Shown: positions 36,640 to 46,795, counted from the stretch's first letter. The stretch: DNA of 53,355 nt from an uncultured Candidatus Hydrogenedens sp. (GCA_902574205.1 CACGMS010000005.1:1-53355), one strand, 5' to 3'. A program made the numbers and translations. Notes: generated by a model from the sequence alone, not told the origin.

Positions 36640-38427
36640 ATGCCCAACAAGATTTCAAACCTTGCAAACACCATGGCGACAGCGGGCGCATTTAATCGTG
36701 CGGACGTCGCCAAATTAATCGATGCTGCCAAAGATGGACCAGGCGTAACTGCCAATGAAAAAGCAGAGCTTAAACAAGTTCTTAATAAGCATTCAGATCT
36801 GTTCGAGGCTGGCGCTAAGTTGGATCTGCAACGTTTCTTAAACCCTGATTTCGATGCGGCGATCAAAGCCAATCCGGGTGGTGACTTTGACAAAGATGGT
36901 TTGACCAATGCTCGAGAACTCAAGCTCGGTACCGACCCTCGACTGGTCGATACAGACGCAGATGGCCTCCATGATGGTGTTGAAGTTAAGAAATACAATC
37001 TTGATCCGGCCGATGCACAAAACAGCGTCAAATCAAAAAGCGAACCTTGGACGACGACCTACTGGCCAATGGCAGGCTACGGCAATGAAGATGGAAATCC
37101 ACGTACGCACCTTTGGGCAAAAGACGGCGCGCTGGATAAACTCGACAAACTCAAAACGGAACGAGGCAATGAAGACGGAGCTAAGGCTCTTGAGTTCGAG
37201 CGAAAACCCGCATTGAACTGGTTGGTTGGCGACGCCAACAAAGGTCATTATATCCCCCACTCATCGCTCAAAGAAAATAACGCTGAAGTCACCACGGGTG
37301 TTGACTTTGATGGTGATGGCAAATTGACCGAAGGGGTTAAAGCCGACTTTATCAACGCTCGCGGTGACTTTCAAACTGTCGTCAATCGTGGTGCTTTTGT
37401 CCCCAAACTTGGTGATGAAACGCTCACCCGAAAAGTCGTTGACGGCGAAGATGGCGAGAAGAACGTTCAGTATTTTAAAGCCGATGGAAGCCAGTTGAGT
37501 GCTGAAGAAGCTAAGAACGTTGTCCTGACCAATCCCAACTCTGATGGCAAAGCCGAAGGTGATATGAGCGTCAGCTGGTGGGGCAGTTGCGATAAAGTGG
37601 CGCTTGCCGGGATTTTGTTCGAAGACCCGAAACGCGATGTGACCGTTGATGGAGTCACCTTTAGTAAGCAAGACATTCGCGGCTTGTTGACCGTCGTCGC
37701 TGATTCTCAAACCAAAGGTACCGACTTTGTCGGACACCGTTACGATGAACGCGCCGATATTGTCGTCACCAACGATGGCAAACAAATTTCCGGAAAAATC
37801 CAAGACATGACTGGTGACGACTTTCGAACCACTAAAGACATGTGGCGTTGGAATGGCGATTACATGGTCACCAATGGCTTTGATAAAGATGTGACCATCA
37901 AACTTACCGATGGCACTGAAAAGACGATTCCAGCTGCTGAGATCAAACACCTTGCGCGCGAAGATAAATCCGACATGGATCCGGGTGTCTTTCACGTCAC
38001 CATGAAGCAATGGCTCGCTGAAGGACGTGGCGCTGCCATGGATAAAGATGCTGGATCTCACGTGTGGAATTACAACTTCTCTAAGTTCGAAACCGCCGAA
38101 CGTAAGGTCGAAAACTTCAATCGTGAAGAAGCTGTAGGCTATCATGGAAAAGCCGGTGACGGTGAAATCCGTCACTACAACTCATCGGTGACCTTCTCGG
38201 GCGGACCAACGAGTTACGATTACTGGCTTGAGTACAAAGATGGCGACATTGTTAACGGCGGCTGGAAGGGTAAAAACCCTGACTTCTTATGGCGACCTTC
38301 AGCATCTGGAGACTGGACAGGAACCAACGAGCGTAACCCGTTCGTCAACCCAGAACTGGTCAAAGAAATCTACGAAGCGAGCATCGCTCCAGAAGCAGAA
38401 GTAACGCCAGACGAAGAGACTGAATAA
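36640..38427 (+). CDS. Calcium-binding transglutaminase-elicitor-like (GP42/Pep-13-like) protein
   Basis: The 595-residue product has no signal peptide or membrane span. Residues about 1-75 are helical. Residues 82-110 carry Asp-rich calcium-type loops (DFDKDGLTNARE and DTDADGLHDGVE), and another lies near 221 (DFDGDGKLTE). The C-terminal half looks like the transglutaminase-elicitor family: the candidate nucleophile Cys317 lies in SWWGSCDKVALAG, His452 in DPGVFHVTMKQW, and VWNYNFSKFETAE starts at Val475. The last aligns with the Phytophthora GP42 Pep-13 peptide at five of 13 positions (Val, Trp, Asn, Phe, Glu). Such enzymes cross-link Gln and Lys side chains. The start has GGAAAGG upstream and a terminator follows. 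The assignment is from memory of the family and needs a profile search. Confidence 0.7.
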   Translation: MPNKISNLANTMATAGAFNRADVAKLIDAAKDGPGVTANEKAELKQVLNKHSDLFEAGAKLDLQRFLNPDFDAAIKANPGGDFDKDGLTNARELKLGTDPRLVDTDADGLHDGVEVKKYNLDPADAQNSVKSKSEPWTTTYWPMAGYGNEDGNPRTHLWAKDGALDKLDKLKTERGNEDGAKALEFERKPALNWLVGDANKGHYIPHSSLKENNAEVTTGVDFDGDGKLTEGVKADFINARGDFQTVVNRGAFVPKLGDETLTRKVVDGEDGEKNVQYFKADGSQLSAEEAKNVVLTNPNSDGKAEGDMSVSWWGSCDKVALAGILFEDPKRDVTVDGVTFSKQDIRGLLTVVADSQTKGTDFVGHRYDERADIVVTNDGKQISGKIQDMTGDDFRTTKDMWRWNGDYMVTNGFDKDVTIKLTDGTEKTIPAAEIKHLAREDKSDMDPGVFHVTMKQWLAEGRGAAMDKDAGSHVWNYNFSKFETAERKVENFNREEAVGYHGKAGDGEIRHYNSSVTFSGGPTSYDYWLEYKDGDIVNGGWKGKNPDFLWRPSASGDWTGTNERNPFVNPELVKEIYEASIAPEAEVTPDEETE

Positions 38428-38508: not shown

Positions 38509-39597
38509 TCAAATAACGTGAATATGACCCATTTCAACCCGAAATCGATCCAACTGACGACTTCCCTGCAACCACGGGCTAGGATCTCGCGTAGCAGTTA
38601 CAAAAACCTGTCCGGATCGAGCGAGCAACCGATTAAATAACGCCTCTGCGCGCCTATCATCAAGCTCACCTGTAATGTCATCAAGAAGTAAAATGGGCGG
38701 CGAGCGACGTTGAGCGATCAACTCAACCTGCGCTAAACGACACGCAAGAACGGCTGAACGCTGCTGACCCTGACTGGCACGCTGGCGTAAGTTTCTTCCA
38801 TCAAGACGCAAAATCCAATCTTCGGAATGCGGTCCATAGCTGGTGTGACCTTGGCGCTCATCACGCGTTCGATGTTGCTGCCATAAGGTCATAATTGAGG
38901 CGACTAAGTCATCACCTTGAGCACAGGGTTTATAAACCGCAGTTAACTGTTCTTTACCATGACAAAGCGCCTCATAAGCTGGCTGCAGATATGACTCAAG
39001 GACGGCTGATGCTTCTGTACGATGCTCAATAATCTTCGCCGCATAACGAGCGGCTTCAGCACTCCATAGATCCAGCAATTCGCCGCCGCGAGCACTCGGT
39101 CGAAGCAAAGCATTGCGTGCAGCTAAAGCTTGAGCATACCGACTATTCACCTCGCGGTGATCGGTAAAAAGATGTTCCGCTACCGCATCGATCAATCGAC
39201 GACGCTCTTTCGGTCCACCCTGAACAAGACTCAGATCACCTGGGCGGAAGAAAACGATCGGGTGATCGGCGGCAAAGGCGGCGGCACTTCGGGGTGTTTG
39301 GTCATCAATCTTAATTCGACGGTCGCTTCGATCAAAACCAATTCTCAGTAAATGCTTGCCCACTTCAGTTTGAAGCTCTGTACGAATAAATCCACTTTCA
39401 CCATCCTGAGGTATCAGCTCCCGCCAGCGAACTCCTGGCGGCGGTCTGAGTTGAGTGGAGACATAAATCGCTTCGAGTAGGCTTGTTTTACCCACTCCAT
39501 TAGCACCAATGAGAAGATGAACCTCAGCTTCAGGACACCAAAACGCATCCTCCCAGCAGCGAAATCCTTTGAGTTCAAGTCGAGTAATTCGGCTCAT
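38509..39597 (-). CDS. recF: DNA repair and recombination protein RecF
   Basis: RecF is an SMC-like ATPase that helps load RecA at gapped DNA. The 362-residue product has the N-terminal LELKGFRCW, the Walker A LIGANGVGKTSLLEA at about residues 30-44 and the signature segment RASQGQQRSAVLACRLA. The Walker B region LLLDDITGELDDRR completes the ATPase. Length fits the family (about 360). The start overlaps the stop of the upstream small helical gene by four bases. In many bacteria recF sits next to dnaN. Here it lies about 6 kb away and faces the opposite direction, with the B12 operon and a peroxiredoxin in between. Confidence 0.95.
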   Translation of the reverse strand: MSRITRLELKGFRCWEDAFWCPEAEVHLLIGANGVGKTSLLEAIYVSTQLRPPPGVRWRELIPQDGESGFIRTELQTEVGKHLLRIGFDRSDRRIKIDDQTPRSAAAFAADHPIVFFRPGDLSLVQGGPKERRRLIDAVAEHLFTDHREVNSRYAQALAARNALLRPSARGGELLDLWSAEAARYAAKIIEHRTEASAVLESYLQPAYEALCHGKEQLTAVYKPCAQGDDLVASIMTLWQQHRTRDERQGHTSYGPHSEDWILRLDGRNLRQRASQGQQRSAVLACRLAQVELIAQRRSPPILLLDDITGELDDRRAEALFNRLLARSGQVFVTATRDPSPWLQGSRQLDRFRVEMGHIHVI

Positions 39598-40037
39598 TCG
39601 CCAGCAAAAAATTCCTCAAGCGCATCAAAGGCTTGTCCGCCAGCAATCAAATCCGCTGCAGGGGGTCGCTTAGGGTCCGCAATAATTTCATCCAAGCGCT
39701 GACGAGCGACCTTAGCGACGGTCGCATCTCCAATTTCAACCAAAGCCACTAAAGCCATCACCGCAGGGTCGTCTGCCGGTTGACGCCGAGCAATGCGTTG
39801 ATAAGTAAATACAGCGGTACGTCTTTTGCCCATCGACCGATAGGCGTGACCAAGCAACAAACGAGCGTTGACGCTTAGATCGTGATCACCATCGTCAGCG
39901 ATATCTTTCAAAAGCTCTGCAGCAGAGGACGCGTTTTTATCGTCCAGCAAGCGATGCAATGCTTCCTTTAAAGCAAGCTCACAACGCGCAACACCACGCG
40001 CGGTTTTTAAAGCTGCCTGAATCGCTTTTCGATCCAT
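39594..40037 (-). CDS. Hypothetical helical-repeat protein upstream of recF
   Basis: This 147-residue soluble protein is all-helical. One stretch resembles a TPR unit (ARLLLGHAYRSMGKRRTAVFTYQRIARRQP), and another resembles a HEAT-type repeat. It has no signal peptide. Its stop overlaps the recF start (ATGA), so translation of the two is probably coupled. I know of no named recF partner of this type, and no function is proposed. It is divergent from the peroxiredoxin gene, with 126 bases between starts. Confidence 0.65.
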   Translation of the reverse strand: MDRKAIQAALKTARGVARCELALKEALHRLLDDKNASSAAELLKDIADDGDHDLSVNARLLLGHAYRSMGKRRTAVFTYQRIARRQPADDPAVMALVALVEIGDATVAKVARQRLDEIIADPKRPPAADLIAGGQAFDALEEFFAGE

Positions 40038-40163
40038 CTCAAAACACCTTAATTGATAAGCCTACTTGCTATGACTCGAATACTTATCGAAGACAACCGC
40101 CTCGGTGTTAACTTGAAGCCTGATTCGCATCAGCGTACCGCAACGTCACCAAGGAGAGTTCGA

Positions 40164-40766
40164 ATGAGCTTAGTCAGTCAACCTGCTCCAAACTTTAGTG
40201 CTCAGGCGCTCGTTGATGATGAATTCAAGACGATCAACTTAAGCGACTATACAGACCAATGGCTCATCCTATTCTTTTATCCTCTTGATTTTACTTATGT
40301 TTGCCCTACCGAAATCAATGGATTTTCTGATCGAATTAGCCAGTTTAAAGCGCTTAATACTGCGGTCTTAGGGTGTTCAACTGATTCGGTTCATAGTCAT
40401 CGAGCATGGACGAAGCAAAGTCGACGCAGTGGCGGACTCGGCGAGTTAAAAATCCCTTTATTAGCCGATTTCACTAAAACAATTGCTGAAGACTATGGTG
40501 TCCTTCTTGAGGAAGGAATGGCCCTGCGCGGCGTATTTATCATCGACCCTCAGGGCATCATCCAGTGGGAGTCTGTCAACGCTCTGGGTGTCGGTCGAAA
40601 TATTGACGAGGTCCTTAGAGTGCTCGCTGCATTGCAATTTGTCGCAGAGCATAACGAGGTGTGTCCGGCGAATTGGAAACCCGGTCGCGATACCATGATT
40701 CCAGATGCTGATGGTTCAAAGTCCTGGTTTCACAAACACGGAAACAGGAAACTTCGATCCACTTAA
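40164..40766 (+). CDS. ahpC: Typical 2-Cys peroxiredoxin (AhpC/Prx1 type)
   Basis: This peroxidase reduces hydrogen peroxide and organic peroxides in the cytoplasm. The 200-residue protein has the peroxidatic Cys in FFYPLDFTYVCPTE, with the conserved Pro, Thr and Arg environment. The resolving Cys is in EVCPANW near the C-terminus. The length is typical. I chose the ATG at 40164, with AAGGAGAG about seven bases upstream; the 37-codon frame upstream has no family match. It has no linked ahpF. The trxB gene in this window could supply reducing power through thioredoxin, which is an inference. The cobalamin riboswitch follows 45 bases downstream. Confidence 0.92.
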   Translation: MSLVSQPAPNFSAQALVDDEFKTINLSDYTDQWLILFFYPLDFTYVCPTEINGFSDRISQFKALNTAVLGCSTDSVHSHRAWTKQSRRSGGLGELKIPLLADFTKTIAEDYGVLLEEGMALRGVFIIDPQGIIQWESVNALGVGRNIDEVLRVLAALQFVAEHNEVCPANWKPGRDTMIPDADGSKSWFHKHGNRKLRST

Positions 40767-40811
40767 ATCAAATGCTTCTTGCACCAATTCGAAACGACCA
40801 AAGAACAGACT

Positions 40812-40990
40812 TGGTTTTTGGTAGGTCCTCGCGTAGACGACAACCGTCGCACAGCGGACAGGAAGTTGGTTAAAATCCAACGCTGCCCCCGCAACTGTGA
40901 CCGGTAACAACCCCTAGTCAACCACTGCATGTTCTGATGTGGGAAGGTATAGGGCGAGGATGATCCGGCGAGCCAGGATACTGTGGCTGT
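40812..40990 (+). promoter_or_regulatory. Cobalamin (vitamin B12) riboswitch
   Basis: The leader contains the conserved core of the adenosylcobalamin/cobalamin riboswitch: the GGAAGTTGG..AAATCC..C stem, then the hallmark GCCCCCGCAACTGTGACCGG (about 40883-40904), then GCCAGGATAC (40972-40981). These B12-box elements are in the right order and spacing for an aptamer of roughly 180 bases, starting around the GGTAGGTCC segment near 40820. It lies ahead of a four-gene operon containing a BtuB-like receptor. In this class binding of cobalamin normally represses uptake genes. The exact ends of the aptamer are approximate. Confidence 0.93.
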
Positions 40991-41100
40991 GAGACACACT
41001 TGGGTCATGTATCGGCGGGATACACAACCAGCTGCACTCATGCATGAGCTGTCCATTTCGGACCATAATTACTCCCGCTAGCAACACGTTGGAGTGTGCC
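40991..41100 (+). promoter_or_regulatory. Riboswitch expression platform with ribosome-site sequestering pairing
   Basis: The 110 bases between the aptamer and the first start codon contain no U-tract terminator. The segment CACACTT (40995-41001) can pair with GAGTGTG (41092-41098, one G-U). The latter overlaps the Shine-Dalgarno GGAG of the GTG start at 41101. This suggests translational control by masking the ribosome site. A 12-base perfect palindrome (CTCATGCATGAG, 41037-41048), preceded by CAGCTG, offers a competing hairpin in between. The pairing model is my inference from complementarity. Confidence 0.55.
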
Positions 41101-41835
41101 GTGGGTCGTCTCTTCAGTTCTCTTTTATGCCTTGGTTCATTAGCTTGTGGACCCTTGCCAACCGATAATTCAGTCATTGAAATTGAAGGGACCTGGGCAA
41201 CGCCTTGGGGTGATGAAGTGATCACCGCTGATCAATGGCAAACCGCAACGATTATCAGCTATAATAACGACACCAATACAGCCATTACTCAAATGCCTGC
41301 TGACGATGAATTTAATCCTAACGCCTATTCAAAGCTGCGTTGGACCGAAGCAGTTGATGGAGCCTTTCACTACTGTACGGTGGCCTTTGGTCTAGCGACC
41401 GAGATGGACGCTGAAGCTGCTGCAGACACCTCGAACATTAACGATCTGGACGGCGAAGGTTGTGGCGGATTTGCCTGGACCGCTATGCGTGAGCCGCTTG
41501 CCATTAGCGGTAACTGGGCATCTGAATTTAGCGAAGAAACGATCAACAGTCAGAGCTGGGACTCTGGTTTTGGTGTCACAGCGGTGCGTGACTGGAGCAA
41601 CTTGGATCAATGGGTCATTACGCAAAACGCGGTGGACGCAGAATTAGGACCAAGCACCTTCAACTCCGTCTTTTGGGCTACGGGTGATAATGGAACCATT
41701 TATCACTGCACAGGAAGTTTTGAACATGAAACCATCGATGCAGCTCGAGCTGCTTTAGCTCAAACACCCGATGCATCTCAGCCAGAAGAATCAGGCTGTG
41801 GAGGTTTTGCGTGGACCAAGCTCGATCCGCGCTGA
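41101..41835 (+). CDS. Lipoprotein with tandemly duplicated unknown domain, B12-riboswitch controlled
   Basis: This 244-residue lipoprotein (signal MGRLFSSLLCLGSLAC, lipid Cys16) consists of two copies of one domain of about 100 residues (30-129 and 137-241). Each copy starts G(T/N)W and ends GCGGFAWT. Each has one Cys pair (92/121 and 203/233), with a Y(C/HC)T-type strand before the first. I do not recognise the domain. The start is GTG with GGAG seven bases upstream; the longer frame to 41044 would disrupt the signal peptide. It is the first gene after the cobalamin riboswitch. Its last 25 bases overlap the next lipoprotein gene. A role in surface capture or handling of corrinoids is inferred from context. 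Confidence 0.75.
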   Translation: MGRLFSSLLCLGSLACGPLPTDNSVIEIEGTWATPWGDEVITADQWQTATIISYNNDTNTAITQMPADDEFNPNAYSKLRWTEAVDGAFHYCTVAFGLATEMDAEAAADTSNINDLDGEGCGGFAWTAMREPLAISGNWASEFSEETINSQSWDSGFGVTAVRDWSNLDQWVITQNAVDAELGPSTFNSVFWATGDNGTIYHCTGSFEHETIDAARAALAQTPDASQPEESGCGGFAWTKLDPR

Positions 41836-42461
41836 TCTTAGTTCTGATCGCTTGTGCTGAAGGTGATCCTCCATCATCACCCTCACACGACGCCGGCATC
41901 ACTATTCAAGAGCTTCCCTTTGCTACGGAAGTTATTGAATTTAAGCCGGGCCCTGGATCGGGTTTTGGCCAAGAACGCTTTCCTCATACGGTCTTAGGTC
42001 CGCCCAAAGGTTACGGTACCAGCCGTGGAAGTACGGATGTCCTTAGTCTAGGTCATGCTGGATCAATTACTTTAGGATTTAGCCCTCGGGCGATTATCGA
42101 TGAACCCGGCCCTGACTTTTTGGTCTTTGAAAATCCATTTTGGGTCAACGATCTACCGGAAAATGTCTTTGCGGAACTTGGTCAAGTCGAGGTGAGTGAA
42201 GACGGAATCGAATGGCATCGCTATGATTGCCAGCTAGACGATCACCCAGCGATGAACTGTGCAGGGTATACACCAACCAACCGATTCAACCTGACCGAAC
42301 CTCTTGATCACGCTACCTGTGGCGGCGACGCATTTGATCTCGCTGATTTAGGTCTCGAGCGAGCACGATTTGTCCGTATCACCGATTTGAGTCTCGACGG
42401 CAGTACACCAAGTGCTGGTTTTGATCTCGACGCGGTTGGACTCATCCATTTTACCGAATGA
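41811..42461 (+). CDS. Second lipoprotein of the B12 operon
   Basis: The 216-residue product starts at a GTG preceded by GGAGG seven bases upstream. It has a short lipoprotein signal (VDQARSALILVLIAC). The mature domain contains FKPGPGSGFGQERFP, then VLSLGHAGSITLGF, then PDFLVFENPFW and FDLDAVGLIHF. This is a beta-sandwich, cell-surface-type pattern that I associate with surface proteins encoded beside B12 receptors in other bacteria. Two Cys pairs may form disulfides. It overlaps the duplicated-domain gene by 25 bases and the receptor gene by four, so all are translated from one message. A corrinoid-related role is inferred from the riboswitch and neighbours. Confidence 0.75.
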   Translation: MDQARSALILVLIACAEGDPPSSPSHDAGITIQELPFATEVIEFKPGPGSGFGQERFPHTVLGPPKGYGTSRGSTDVLSLGHAGSITLGFSPRAIIDEPGPDFLVFENPFWVNDLPENVFAELGQVEVSEDGIEWHRYDCQLDDHPAMNCAGYTPTNRFNLTEPLDHATCGGDAFDLADLGLERARFVRITDLSLDGSTPSAGFDLDAVGLIHFTE

Positions 42462-44359
42462 TAAATCTGATTCTACTCGGTTTTATCGTCCAAGGACCAA
42501 CTCAAAAAGGTCAACGTCCCAGCGATTCTTTACGCCATCATCAAGGTGAAGATCTCAACCTTGATTTTGAACTCGCCGATGGATCAGCTTGGGAATCTGT
42601 TCTTAGCCAGAATCTCGAACTTAGTATTCGTCGAAATGCATCGTTGATGGCTCCGATAAATATGTCATGGCGAGGCAGTCGAACGCATCAAATTCAATGG
42701 ACTTTAGATGGTTTACCGCTAGGCGATGCCCTCAGCGGAGGGTCAGGCTTACGAAGCCTTGATCCTCACCTATTTGGGCGTCTTACCGCCTTCGCTGCGA
42801 GCGGATCAGGTTTGGACTCACCCATCGGAGGTGAGCTCGCTCTACGATCATTGAAAACGGGTCATCACCTCAAGCTGGTTGTCGATGATCTCTTTCAAAA
42901 AGGTGTTCATCTGAGCACGCGAAATTCCAAAAGAAGCGTCAGTCTTTCGACCAGTCAAACACCTGGTCAATTTCAATATTTTAATGACCGCGGAACCTTA
43001 TGGATTACAGAGGATGATCAATGGATTAAGCGATCAAATAATGATGCTCGTCGAACCGGTTTTTTGTGGCGAGAACAATTCTCGCCGCACGTGGTGGGTC
43101 GTTTATTGATGAGTACACTCAATGGTGGCATTCCGGGTACAGGAAGTCGTCCACTCAGGCAGGTTCGTGAACGCGAAGATTTACAACTTGCTCATATCAG
43201 CTGGCAACGCACAAAAGGTATTGATCGGTTGGATCTAAGTATCCTCCAAAGACAACAACAGCTCAACGACCCTTATGGCGAATTTTCTGGTCTATTTGGC
43301 TTACAACCGCGTAGCCTAGGTCGGCGTATATTTTTAGGTTGGCGACACAAAAAAATACATCAAAAATACGCCTATGAATTGCAAAGTCGTGGATTCATCG
43401 ATGCCCTCACTAAACGACCAGGGCCAGCGTTAACATCGGCCACCGGCTATCGATTCAAGGGACAAATAGGCTCGACAATCAGAGCCAACATTAATCGTCG
43501 CTTAACCCTCGAGGGTTGGGTGATGATTGGACAGGTCTACGACCAAACTCAAAAATTAATCGATCAGCTACCTGAAGCGCTCAAACCCGAGGATACCACA
43601 CCGAGAAACTGGATTTGGGCACCAGGCTTGAGCATCAACTACAAGAAGTGGTTTCGAGCACGATTCATCTCAGGTCAACGCGCACCAAGTTTGTTTGAAC
43701 GAGTCGGGCAACATGGAGGACTCAAAGGCAATCCTGGGCTTGAAGCTGAGCGATCGTGGACGATTGATGGTCGTTATCGTCGCGAGGCAAAAACTCATCG
43801 ATTGCACATCCATACCTATGCTCGTCAAAGTTCAAATCTTATCGATTGGACCGCTACAAGTTTTGGTCGAGCGATGCCGATCAATCGATCGCTAGCGCAC
43901 ATCGCAGGTCTGAGATTAACCGGGTCAATTCGTTACGCTCAAATTGAATCCATAATCGACTATCGATGGCAAGGTGAATGGATTCAAGACAGCGAGATTG
44001 ATAACCATTTTAAGCGCTTAGCAAGCAGCCCCGAACATCATGGTCGCTGGATCACCTACTGGAAGGAAAAATCATTGAGACTTGGTTTAGGAATCAACAT
44101 CAAAAGTCATACTTATTTAGATGCTGCTAACCTGAGATTAATCGACTCAAAGCCAGAATTGAACCTGATTGCTGAGCGACGAATCAATCAATATGCTCAA
44201 CTCAGCATTCAATTCTTTAATCTAACCAACAACCAGCAAACCCAATTGACGTTATTACCGTCAAAGCATCGTGTTGATGTCCCCTATCAAGACCGTTGGG
44301 GATATCCTCTTCCTGGTCGACGAATACAGATTGGTTTGACCATTAAGGATAAACCATGA
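42458..44359 (+). CDS. btuB: TonB-dependent outer-membrane receptor, BtuB-like
   Basis: TonB-dependent receptors are 22-strand barrels with an N-terminal plug that import scarce ligands using proton-motive force. This 633-residue protein has a signal peptide, a short plug region (LSIRRNASLMAPINMSWRG, then HQIQWTLDGLPLGDALSGG) and a long barrel. The C-terminal segment GYPLPGRRIQIGLTI matches the YPLPGR close of BtuB-type receptors. The length is close to BtuB (about 600). The cobalamin riboswitch upstream makes vitamin B12 or another corrinoid the likely ligand. I see no clear TonB box. Inner-membrane btuCDF genes are not in the window. Start and stop overlap the neighbours by four bases. Confidence 0.82.
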   Translation: MINLILLGFIVQGPTQKGQRPSDSLRHHQGEDLNLDFELADGSAWESVLSQNLELSIRRNASLMAPINMSWRGSRTHQIQWTLDGLPLGDALSGGSGLRSLDPHLFGRLTAFAASGSGLDSPIGGELALRSLKTGHHLKLVVDDLFQKGVHLSTRNSKRSVSLSTSQTPGQFQYFNDRGTLWITEDDQWIKRSNNDARRTGFLWREQFSPHVVGRLLMSTLNGGIPGTGSRPLRQVREREDLQLAHISWQRTKGIDRLDLSILQRQQQLNDPYGEFSGLFGLQPRSLGRRIFLGWRHKKIHQKYAYELQSRGFIDALTKRPGPALTSATGYRFKGQIGSTIRANINRRLTLEGWVMIGQVYDQTQKLIDQLPEALKPEDTTPRNWIWAPGLSINYKKWFRARFISGQRAPSLFERVGQHGGLKGNPGLEAERSWTIDGRYRREAKTHRLHIHTYARQSSNLIDWTATSFGRAMPINRSLAHIAGLRLTGSIRYAQIESIIDYRWQGEWIQDSEIDNHFKRLASSPEHHGRWITYWKEKSLRLGLGINIKSHTYLDAANLRLIDSKPELNLIAERRINQYAQLSIQFFNLTNNQQTQLTLLPSKHRVDVPYQDRWGYPLPGRRIQIGLTIKDKP

Positions 44360-45393
44360 AGCGATTATTCACTCTTTTGATCATCACAAGTTGTCAGGCG
44401 CCATCACCTGTAAAGACGCTGGAGACTCCACCGGATTTAGTGATCCTAGAAAGTGATTACACCACCGGCTTAATTAGTGGTTGGACTTCAAATTTCGAAG
44501 CGCAACTAGGAACACTACCGAGCAATGGAGATGCAAAGATTGTCTCGCTATCTAATGGCTATGCACTCCTTGAGCGTAGCCAAACAGATGCGGTGACTTT
44601 TCTCGATCATCAGCTCAATATTGTTCATCAACATGCGCTACCCGAGCGCAGCAACCCTCATGATCTCATCGAAACCGACGATGCTTACTGGATCAGTTTG
44701 TATCAAGATCCTAGGATCATTCGTCTGAACAAAGACAATTATGAACCCATAACAGCTATTGATGGACAACGATGGACGGATACAGATGGTCGACCAGAAG
44801 CCAGTGATTTACATGTGCATTTTGATGGCACGATCTTTCTTACGGTGCAAAATCTTGATTTTAGTGGCGTTGAACCGATTTCACCTACCTCGAGTCAGCT
44901 GATTCATCTTCAATCCAATGGTGAAATCATTAATCAATATGCGATTCCGCCCAATCCCTTTGCGCCTTTAGTTGCCCTGGATGACGACCATCTCCTCATC
45001 GCCTGCAACCACAGTTGGGGAATTGAAGAAGATGCCGGTCTTTGGCGTTTTAATTTGAACGATCAAGATCAAAAGCTGGTTGTTAGCGAAACCCAACTCA
45101 ATGGAAATATTCTCGATGTAATCCGTCACGATGAATGGATTTATATTTTGGTCTCAAAGCTTGATTTTAGTACGGTATTGTATCGCTTTAATGAGACTAC
45201 CAAAGCGCTGACGACAATCACCGGCTCAACATCATCTCTTGGCTGTCTTACACCGTCTGAAAACAACACTATTTATGTCTGTGACCGCCAAATCGGGCAG
45301 CATGGAATTCGTCAACTCGAAAGTGGCACGTTGCAACTCAAAAATGTGTTATTCAAAACCACACTCGCACCCCTACAAATCCTAACCCGATGA
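44356..45393 (+). CDS. BtuG-like beta-propeller surface lipoprotein
   Basis: The 345-residue product has a lipoprotein signal (MKRLFTLLIITSC). The mature part is a repeated beta pattern of about six or seven blades, for example SNPHDLIETDDAYWISLYQDPRIIRL, with similar turns later (DLHVHFDGTIFLTV, LDVIRHDEWIYILV). This matches YncE-type propellers such as BtuG, the surface protein that caps BtuB in Bacteroides and binds B12 very tightly. The gene order receptor-then-propeller under a cobalamin riboswitch supports the same role here. The start overlaps the receptor stop (ATGA). BtuG identity is an inference from fold pattern and context, not a recognised signature. Confidence 0.7.
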   Translation: MKRLFTLLIITSCQAPSPVKTLETPPDLVILESDYTTGLISGWTSNFEAQLGTLPSNGDAKIVSLSNGYALLERSQTDAVTFLDHQLNIVHQHALPERSNPHDLIETDDAYWISLYQDPRIIRLNKDNYEPITAIDGQRWTDTDGRPEASDLHVHFDGTIFLTVQNLDFSGVEPISPTSSQLIHLQSNGEIINQYAIPPNPFAPLVALDDDHLLIACNHSWGIEEDAGLWRFNLNDQDQKLVVSETQLNGNILDVIRHDEWIYILVSKLDFSTVLYRFNETTKALTTITGSTSSLGCLTPSENNTIYVCDRQIGQHGIRQLESGTLQLKNVLFKTTLAPLQILTR

Positions 45394-45694
45394 TCAACAC
45401 ATCACCATCCGAACACGATCCCGTTTAAGCAAAACTCTTCGGTTACTTGTTGAAAACTACTCGAAAGCATTTTTTGTTCGGCCAGTTCCTACAAAGTCCT
45501 TCGATCTAAACCAAGTTTTCAAAATTTATTTAATTAGTTTTTTCAATAACTTAACTAAGTTATCAAAAGGCCGGATCCTCAACAAAAACAAGAGTTTTAA
45601 AAACCCTTTTTGTTCTTTGCTCAAAGGCATCTTAAAGCGCTTGTTCGGCCCTACGCTAGGGGCTAGGTTGTGAGCCGCTTGAAGGAGCGTAAAT
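45394..45694. other. Gene-free AT-rich gap, candidate chromosomal replication origin
   Basis: No gene of its own is supported in these 301 bases. The stretch around 45515-45567 is strongly AT-rich. Four 9-mers resemble the DnaA box TTATCCACA with two or three mismatches: TGTTGAAAA (45448, reverse strand), TTTTCAAAA (45516), TTTTCAATA (45540) and TTATCAAAA (45560). TTGTTCGGCC occurs twice (45474 and 45641). Just upstream of dnaN a small hairpin (CCCTA/TAGGG, 45649-45661) is present. Strand composition and gene direction change across the gap. dnaA itself is not next to it. The dnaN promoter must lie here too, but I cannot place it. Confidence 0.5.
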
Positions 45695-46795
45695 ATGCAG
45701 TTCTCTATGGAAGCGAAAGCATTGTCAGTTGCTCTTGGACGAGTGATTGGCGTGGTGCAGCATAAATCAAGTCGTCCAATTCTGACCTGTGTTCTACTCA
45801 CGGTTGAGGATGACGGATCCTTGCACCTAGAAAGTACGAATACTGATATTTCGGTTTCGGTGCATTTATCAGCAACCGTTCAAAGTGCAGGTCGTATCGC
45901 TGTTCCAGCTCGAAAGTTTAGCGATTATTTAGGTACCTTACCTGATGGTATGATTACGTTTAAGACGAATGATGATGGTCATGTCACTGTGACTTCAAGC
46001 CGAGGACAAGGTGAGTTGGCTGGTCAACCTGGTAGTGATTTTCCGGTGATGCAGAGTTTTGATGATGCCAACTTTGCTGAGGTTTCAAGTTCGGAAATGA
46101 AGCGCGTGCTGACACAGACGATTCGATGCGCATCCACCGATGATAGCCGATTCGCGCTAGTTGGTGTTTATGTGCACAGCAAGCCGGATGGTCTTCGATT
46201 CGTTGCAACGGATGGTCATCGATTAGCAGTTGCTCGTCCGGGCTCAGGATTTGCGTGGTCAGTTCCTAACGATGGAATGATCATGCCGAGTCGCGGCGTT
46301 GATGAATTGCGTAAGCTCATGGATGGTCAAGAGAACATCTCGATTGCTGTGGTGGGTAATCATGCGGTTGCTCGTAGCGATGATCAGACCTTGTGTATGC
46401 GTCTAACTGATGGGACCTTTCCGAATTATGAACAGGTGATTCCAAAAGCGAATGACCGACACGCCGTCGTGGATCGGGGACAGTTGCTGTCGGCTTTAAG
46501 AACAGTCGCTGTCTTCTCATCGCTTAAAACCGGACAGGTTGAGATCACCTTTAATTCCGGCGCACTTGTGATCTCATCAGTCTCTGACTCAGGGACTGCA
46601 CGTGAAGAATTACCTTGCGATTACGATGGTCAGGAATTGCGTATTGGATTCAACCATAAATATTTACGTGACGCGCTTGAATCCGTTGAAGGATCAGCCG
46701 TCCTCTTTCGCATGGGCGATCATTTAGCACCAGCTGTTGTGATGCCTGAAGGCGATGATCATTATTTGTGTGTGATCATGCCGATGCGATTATAA
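45695..46795 (+). CDS. dnaN: DNA polymerase III beta sliding clamp
   Basis: DnaN forms the ring-shaped dimer that tethers the replicative polymerase to DNA. The 366-residue product has the three clamp domains. Recognisable segments are VIGVVQHKSSRPILTCVLL in domain I, RFALVGVYVH then FVATDGHRLAVA in domain II, and the C-terminal YLCVIMPMRL. The hydrophobic partner-binding cleft and C-terminal Met-Arg-Leu are typical. The ATG has GAAGGAG about nine bases upstream. It is the first of a rightward gene series (ileS, lgt and others) following the candidate origin. Codon choice is more G- and T-rich at third positions than in the genes to its left. Confidence 0.96.
   Translation: MQFSMEAKALSVALGRVIGVVQHKSSRPILTCVLLTVEDDGSLHLESTNTDISVSVHLSATVQSAGRIAVPARKFSDYLGTLPDGMITFKTNDDGHVTVTSSRGQGELAGQPGSDFPVMQSFDDANFAEVSSSEMKRVLTQTIRCASTDDSRFALVGVYVHSKPDGLRFVATDGHRLAVARPGSGFAWSVPNDGMIMPSRGVDELRKLMDGQENISIAVVGNHAVARSDDQTLCMRLTDGTFPNYEQVIPKANDRHAVVDRGQLLSALRTVAVFSSLKTGQVEITFNSGALVISSVSDSGTAREELPCDYDGQELRIGFNHKYLRDALESVEGSAVLFRMGDHLAPAVVMPEGDDHYLCVIMPMRL

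Follow-up and report, generated by a model that had tools for sequence, protein, structure and literature searches.

We identified a cobalamin riboswitch followed by four + strand open reading frames (g1 to g4) in the window, the whole 53,355-nucleotide stretch of DNA analysed here, which derives from an uncultured Candidatus Hydrogenedens sp. (GCA_902574205.1, CACGMS010000005.1:1-53355). The features of the locus are as follows:

40859..40983, + strand: cobalamin riboswitch aptamer core (RF00174 model positions 45-169; cmscan 92.7 bits, E 8.3e-22)
41101..41835, + strand: g1, lipoprotein with two tandem LIC13354-type domains of ~115 aa (NF047669 match; lipobox and Shine-Dalgarno sequence by inspection)
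41811..42461, + strand: g2, LIC_13355-type lipoprotein, jelly-roll-like (NF033170, E 5.4e-14; best Foldseek match in the PDB 8blw_B)
42458..44359, + strand: g3, BtuB-type TonB-dependent outer-membrane receptor with a divergent plug (ATG start; PF00593, 2.1e-9; family profile A3)
44356..45393, + strand: g4, BtuG-like propeller lipoprotein (ATG start; lipobox ..LIITSC by inspection; family profile A4)

An earlier note, made from the sequence alone, had claimed a cobalamin riboswitch ahead of four overlapping genes in a Myxococcota-like genome. The RF00174 covariance model scores well above its gathering threshold of 31.5 bits, and the overlaps are exactly the 25, 4 and 4 bases claimed, which suggests co-translation. 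The taxonomic placement is likewise supported, as g2 relatives come from records with Myxococcales, Myxococcota or Polyangiaceae in their titles. The aptamer is the sole RF00174 match in the host assembly (G000; 2.02 Mb, 60% complete), and by inspection its outer stems probably extend the element to about 40815-41030. No terminator was found between aptamer and g1, where the fold is not unusually stable (z -0.65); translational control is our guess.

The flanks, judged by inspection, look like ordinary chromosome, with peroxiredoxin-like and RecF-like genes upstream and dnaN-like (45695) and ileS-like genes downstream. The operon thus stands between RecF-like and dnaN-like genes (38509-46795), which are usually neighbours near the replication origin. 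Further upstream, positions 36640-38427 encode a 595-aa protein with calcium-binding-like DxDxDG repeats. Elsewhere in the assembly, contig C19 carries btuFDC-like ABC transporter genes unlinked to the operon, and C6 (6000-20000, L069) carries a likely heme uptake locus comprising a receptor, a binding protein, a permease and a heme-type ATPase. No enzyme with a B12-binding domain (PF02310) was found in the assembly, a result that is uninformative at 60% completeness.

The four proteins and their relatives

The g1 reading frame opens at 41044; by inspection we prefer the GTG at 41101 as its start, with GGAG 6 nt upstream and a lipobox (..LGSLAC). The protein matches the NCBIfam family NF047669 (LIC13354) in two stretches (E 6.8e-10, 39.5 bits against a curated cut-off of 130), and by this profile is related to the LIC13354 family while falling below its curated cut-off. 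Ten of 15 g1 domains examined match the same model, and relatives carry one to five domains per protein. g1 has no significant Pfam match. A model of its domain (pLDDT 86.6) gave nothing better than E 0.86 in a Foldseek-type search of PDB folds, and a profile search of the PDB gave no match; among the weak fold matches are small beta-barrels of avidin or lipocalin type. g1 is probably a new component of a cobamide capture-and-uptake operon, and possibly a new B12-binding class or fold. In a genome of the same family as the host (G002), contig C74 carries a lipoprotein-like reading frame with five tandem g1-type domains (L058:5462-7234), with no cobalamin riboswitch within the 12 kb examined.

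g2 starts at GTG 41811, with GGAGG 6 nt upstream and a lipobox (..LVLIAC), again by inspection. Its match to NCBIfam NF033170 (LIC_13355) reaches 52 bits against a curated cut-off of 120, which makes it a relative of the LIC_13355 family that falls short of curated membership; 26 of 32 g2 relatives match this model. g2 too has no significant Pfam match. The earlier note had described g1 and g2 as two uncharacterised, unnamed lipoproteins: their lipoprotein signals stand, by inspection, but they are not orphans, being relatives of LIC13354 and LIC_13355 of the Leptospira cobII cluster (PMC4758666, PMC5348505).

Both structure and sequence comparisons point from g2 to a known B12-binding domain. 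A g2 model built from five sequences (pLDDT 77.8, pTM 0.81) has as its best PDB match 8blw_B, the BtuG chain of a BtuB1-BtuG1 complex (9.5e-6), followed by discoidin-like jelly rolls near 1e-3 and BtuH2 (7biz_B) at 0.014. The best PDB match of the g2 sequence profile is also 8blw_B (E 0.013), at residues 386-498, which fall within the C-terminal extension of BtuG1; this extension is an H domain homologous to the B12-binding BtuH2 (PMC10404256). An hhalign comparison of g2 with the BtuG1 fragment gave a probability of 88.7, a value inflated by the choice of the fragment from the earlier match. Because the alignments to BtuH are loose (TM 0.49, high rmsd), we regard g2 as only probably kin to the BtuH domain. 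A g2-like domain also forms the C-terminus of a 961-aa Phycisphaerae protein with a kinase-like N-terminus (L005:3505-6390), and so is used outside B12 loci as well.

Searching the PDB with the single g3 and g4 sequences gave no match, and family profiles were therefore used for both. The g3 profile (14 members) ranks E. coli BtuB first (3rgm/2gsk/1nqe, 1.6e-35), with Bacteroides BtuB (8bmx_C) at 1.1e-32, in agreement with the BtuB-like receptor of the earlier note. g3 is nevertheless far below the cut-offs of the E. coli-type BtuB equivalogs (19.4 vs 599.7 bits for TIGR01779; 10.8 vs 836 for NF007926) and shares only about 20% identity with its relatives. Its plug domain matches Pfam weakly, whereas relatives have a full plug, and it has no clear TonB box. 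From its profiles and setting (barrel and plug, BtuB closest among solved receptors, a B12-regulated locus), g3 is a BtuB in the wider sense, with cobalamin import as its predicted function.

g4 matches nothing in Pfam or the other library searched. Its profile (five members) has as its top three PDB matches 8okv_B, 8puj_A and 8p97_B at E 0.002; the remaining matches are mostly BtuG/YncE-type chains, and the match is short, mainly in one stretch. 8OKV is BtuG3 and 8P97 is BtuB3G3 (PMC10404256), and the BtuG-like propeller lipoprotein of the earlier note thus finds weak support.

Neither g1, g2 nor g4 has an aspartate after the lipobox cysteine. Under the usual Lol rule, lipoproteins lacking this residue go to the outer membrane, which points to all three being outer-membrane lipoproteins.

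Gene order and riboswitches across Myxococcota

We gathered g2 relatives by protein similarity only and obtained 32 assessable loci, excluding contig-edge cases and the unlike L005 protein. RF00174 lies upstream on the same strand at 23 of these loci, and nine have no riboswitch nearby. g1 is encoded at 20 loci, of which 19 could be assessed; at 16 of the 19 a riboswitch scoring above the gathering threshold precedes the gene, and at a further g1 locus (L062) the riboswitch scores 26.9 bits, just below that threshold. Under a generous null of 0.25% per locus, riboswitches precede g1 and g2 far more often than chance would give, with the qualification that related genomes are counted though non-independent. 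Neither of the two outcomes that the earlier note had named as refuting it was observed: the covariance model does score, and propeller and lipoproteins do co-occur with BtuB-like receptors or B12 riboswitches in other genomes. That note had also presented the four-part set as a variant found in this genome: the likeness to the Bacteroides system is borne out, but its parts are not confined here, since among 195 Myxococcota genomes g2 occurs in 99 and g1 in 17 (and the riboswitch in 181). A search of plasmid records recovered no g1 or g2 relatives.

Gene order varies among the relatives. A riboswitch is followed by g1-g2 alone at five loci (L029, L030, L004, L044 and L045). At L053 and L052, the latter at a contig edge, g1 and g2 are fused in one gene followed by g3-g4. 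Three loci have the order g2-g3-g4 (L051, L054 and L056), and L047, and probably L035, have receptor-propeller-g2-g1. In genome G009, g1-g2 (contig C1) and g3-g4 (C41) have separate riboswitches, as do g1 (C198) and g3-g4 (C29) in G044, where g2 lies on C49 without one. The position of g3-g4 in G002, between RecF-like and dnaN-like genes, matches that in the window, but both g1-g2 and a riboswitch are lacking there; two single g1 genes on another contig of this genome have one riboswitch apiece.

At other loci, the genes that follow a g3-g4 pair under a riboswitch are btuCDF-like or cobO: L078 continues with FecCD permease, ABC ATPase and binding-protein genes, L082 with a binding-protein gene, and L079 with the gene for an ATP:corrinoid adenosyltransferase (cobO). 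Riboswitches accompany 11 of 14 g3-g4 loci, a rate biased by the partial choice of L071-L083 for a nearby riboswitch. All four families are thus computationally linked to cobalamin riboswitches, and g3-g4 also to btuCDF-like genes and cobO. A putative capture module (g1-g2) and a transport module (g3-g4) are joined in the window; in other genomes the two are separate, and in many cases each has a riboswitch to itself. The fixed stoichiometry that the earlier note had read from the overlaps is unsupported, because relatives split the modules in this way and vary the number of g1 domains.

Several further arrangements were observed. At L085:983-7630 (G029, contig C123), a g3-g4 pair is accompanied by a DUF5522-diphthamide-synthase-like (DUF71) gene and by three others, two of which encode a FecCD permease and an ABC ATPase; a riboswitch was looked for there and none was found. 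Published work has linked DUF71 to B12 salvage. A pair of cobalamin riboswitches lies back to back, one on each strand, at L051:316-715. At L038, L039 and L040, a stretch of about 8 kb holds three cobalamin riboswitches, of which one precedes a receptor-propeller pair and two precede a ~500-aa lipoprotein and g2. This lipoprotein has Asp/Ala/Gly/Thr-rich repeats; its family, for which the L034 relative gave no match in Pfam, may represent a further capture protein.

Proposed function and alternatives

We consider it very likely that g1-g4 form a cobamide capture-and-uptake (scavenging) operon of the Bacteroides BtuB/BtuG/BtuH kind, and from the above we infer cobamide binding by g1, g2 and g4, their surface exposure and an order of hand-over. 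When cobamide is scarce, the riboswitch would permit expression of all four genes, which plentiful B12 would repress. The g4 propeller lipoprotein would sit on g3 at the outer membrane, bind cobamide and pass it to g3, which would import it with TonB energy. As outer-membrane lipoproteins, g1 and g2 would enlarge the zone of capture: g2 would bind cobamide through its BtuH-like jelly roll and g1 through its tandem small beta-barrel domain, and both would supply the g4-g3 complex. The unlinked btuFDC-like ABC transporter would then move cobamide across the inner membrane.

Alternatively, g3-g4 could import cobamide while g1 and g2 do not bind it, acting instead as co-regulated accessory lipoproteins for receptor stability or assembly, or for attachment to other molecules. 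g1 is without a solved relative, nine g2 loci are without a riboswitch, and LIC_13355 has been reported to bind laminin and plasminogen (PMC11891782), all of which would fit such a role. At the five loci with g1-g2 alone and at L057, L059, L063 and L064, however, g1-g2 or g1 alone stands under its own riboswitch with no receptor beside it; by position, then, g1 and g2 are not receptor-assembly parts. The BtuH-like fold matches of g2, the multiplication of g1 domains, which fits a binder, and the place of the pair beside cobTSC in Leptospira also speak against an accessory role, which we think unlikely.

The ligand or the propeller could also be of another kind. Cobalt transporters and B12-independent substitutes are also among the targets of cobalamin riboswitches, so the riboswitch could be purely regulatory and the operon could import another molecule needed when B12 is short, such as cobalt, a corrinoid precursor (e.g. 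cobinamide) or a metallophore; the low identity of g3 to its relatives leaves room for this. We hold it to be highly improbable: BtuB ranks first among all solved receptors for the g3 family profile, relatives continue into btuCDF-like genes or the ATP:corrinoid adenosyltransferase, and a cobinamide ligand would leave the system of the same kind. The weak sequence match of g4 to BtuG and its want of a Pfam family would equally suit a generic YncE-type propeller with a function unrelated to BtuG. Against this stands its position, directly after g3 here and directly after a BtuB-type gene in many relatives, often with 4-base overlaps, as in Bacteroides btuB-btuG; most of the receptor-propeller loci scanned lie under a cobalamin riboswitch, and a generic propeller appears very unlikely.

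Comparison with known B12 systems

The proposed capture-and-uptake operon most resembles the B12 loci of Bacteroides thetaiotaomicron (BtuB-BtuG with BtuH, BtuJ and BtuK; PMC6143338, PMC10404256, PMC8941943, PMC12751083) in its riboswitch, in the propeller-like lipoprotein encoded next to a BtuB-type receptor and in its extra lipoproteins, among which g2 probably resembles the BtuH domain. It differs in phylum, in its very distant sequences and in its unlinked ABC transporter; no counterpart of g1 was found in Bacteroides, and DUF4465 (BtuJ) is absent from the window's operon. With the E. coli BtuB-TonB/BtuCDF system it shares the kinship of the receptor and, elsewhere in the assembly, a btuFDC-like transporter, but E. 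coli has no capture lipoproteins and g3 is far from its BtuB equivalogs. The DUF4465/BtuJ B12-binding jelly rolls (PF14717; PMC13398666) are likewise exported proteins of B12 loci with a jelly-roll-like fold. We considered and rejected g2 as one of them: Pfam detects DUF4465 neither in g2 nor in the host assembly, and among the 195 Myxococcota genomes a DUF4465 gene occurs in one, elsewhere in that genome.

At the BLAST thresholds of a 2018 eLife paper, no homologue of BtuG was recovered from outside Bacteroidetes, and lipoprotein-assisted B12 capture has so far been described as a Bacteroidetes speciality. In the literature searched, the g1-g4 set is not described in Myxococcota, and LIC13354 and LIC13355 are not assigned to B12 capture. 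Our analysis suggests that another phylum has a comparable system, widely distributed and with partly different catchers, to which g1 could add a new B12-binding fold.

In Leptospira, where gene context was taken from papers, the 'putative lipoproteins' LA_4202 and LA_4203 belong to the cobII cluster with cobT-cobS-cobC (PMC4758666, Table 2) and correspond to LIC13354 and LIC13355 (PMC5348505). They represent the two families to which g1 and g2 are related (NF047669 and NF033170), with adjacent gene numbers, and stand beside cobTSC where g1-g2 of the window stand beside btuB-btuG-like genes. No cobalamin riboswitch is reported directly upstream of this pair; published accounts place two elsewhere, at btuB and the other cob cluster. 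PMC7567364, in the part available, counts three in Leptospira and does not give positions. Both genes are up-regulated in host-like conditions, 3.77- and 3.72-fold (PMC3953431), and the study that reported LIC_13355 as a laminin- and plasminogen-binding adhesin used refolded protein and does not mention B12 (PMC11891782). Taken with the riboswitch linkage in Myxococcota, the cobII context means that two phyla independently tie a g1-g2-type pair to B12. We tentatively propose, as a plausible extension, that the LIC13354-type domain is a new cobamide-binding class with a fold absent from the PDB, that this domain and the BtuH-like LIC_13355 family together make up a B12-capture module of two parts common to Myxococcota and Leptospira, and that the Leptospira lipoproteins, one of them called an adhesin, are B12 scavengers. 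Two families recognised until now only as unexplained or 'adhesin' lipoproteins of this pathogen would thereby gain a concrete and quickly testable function.
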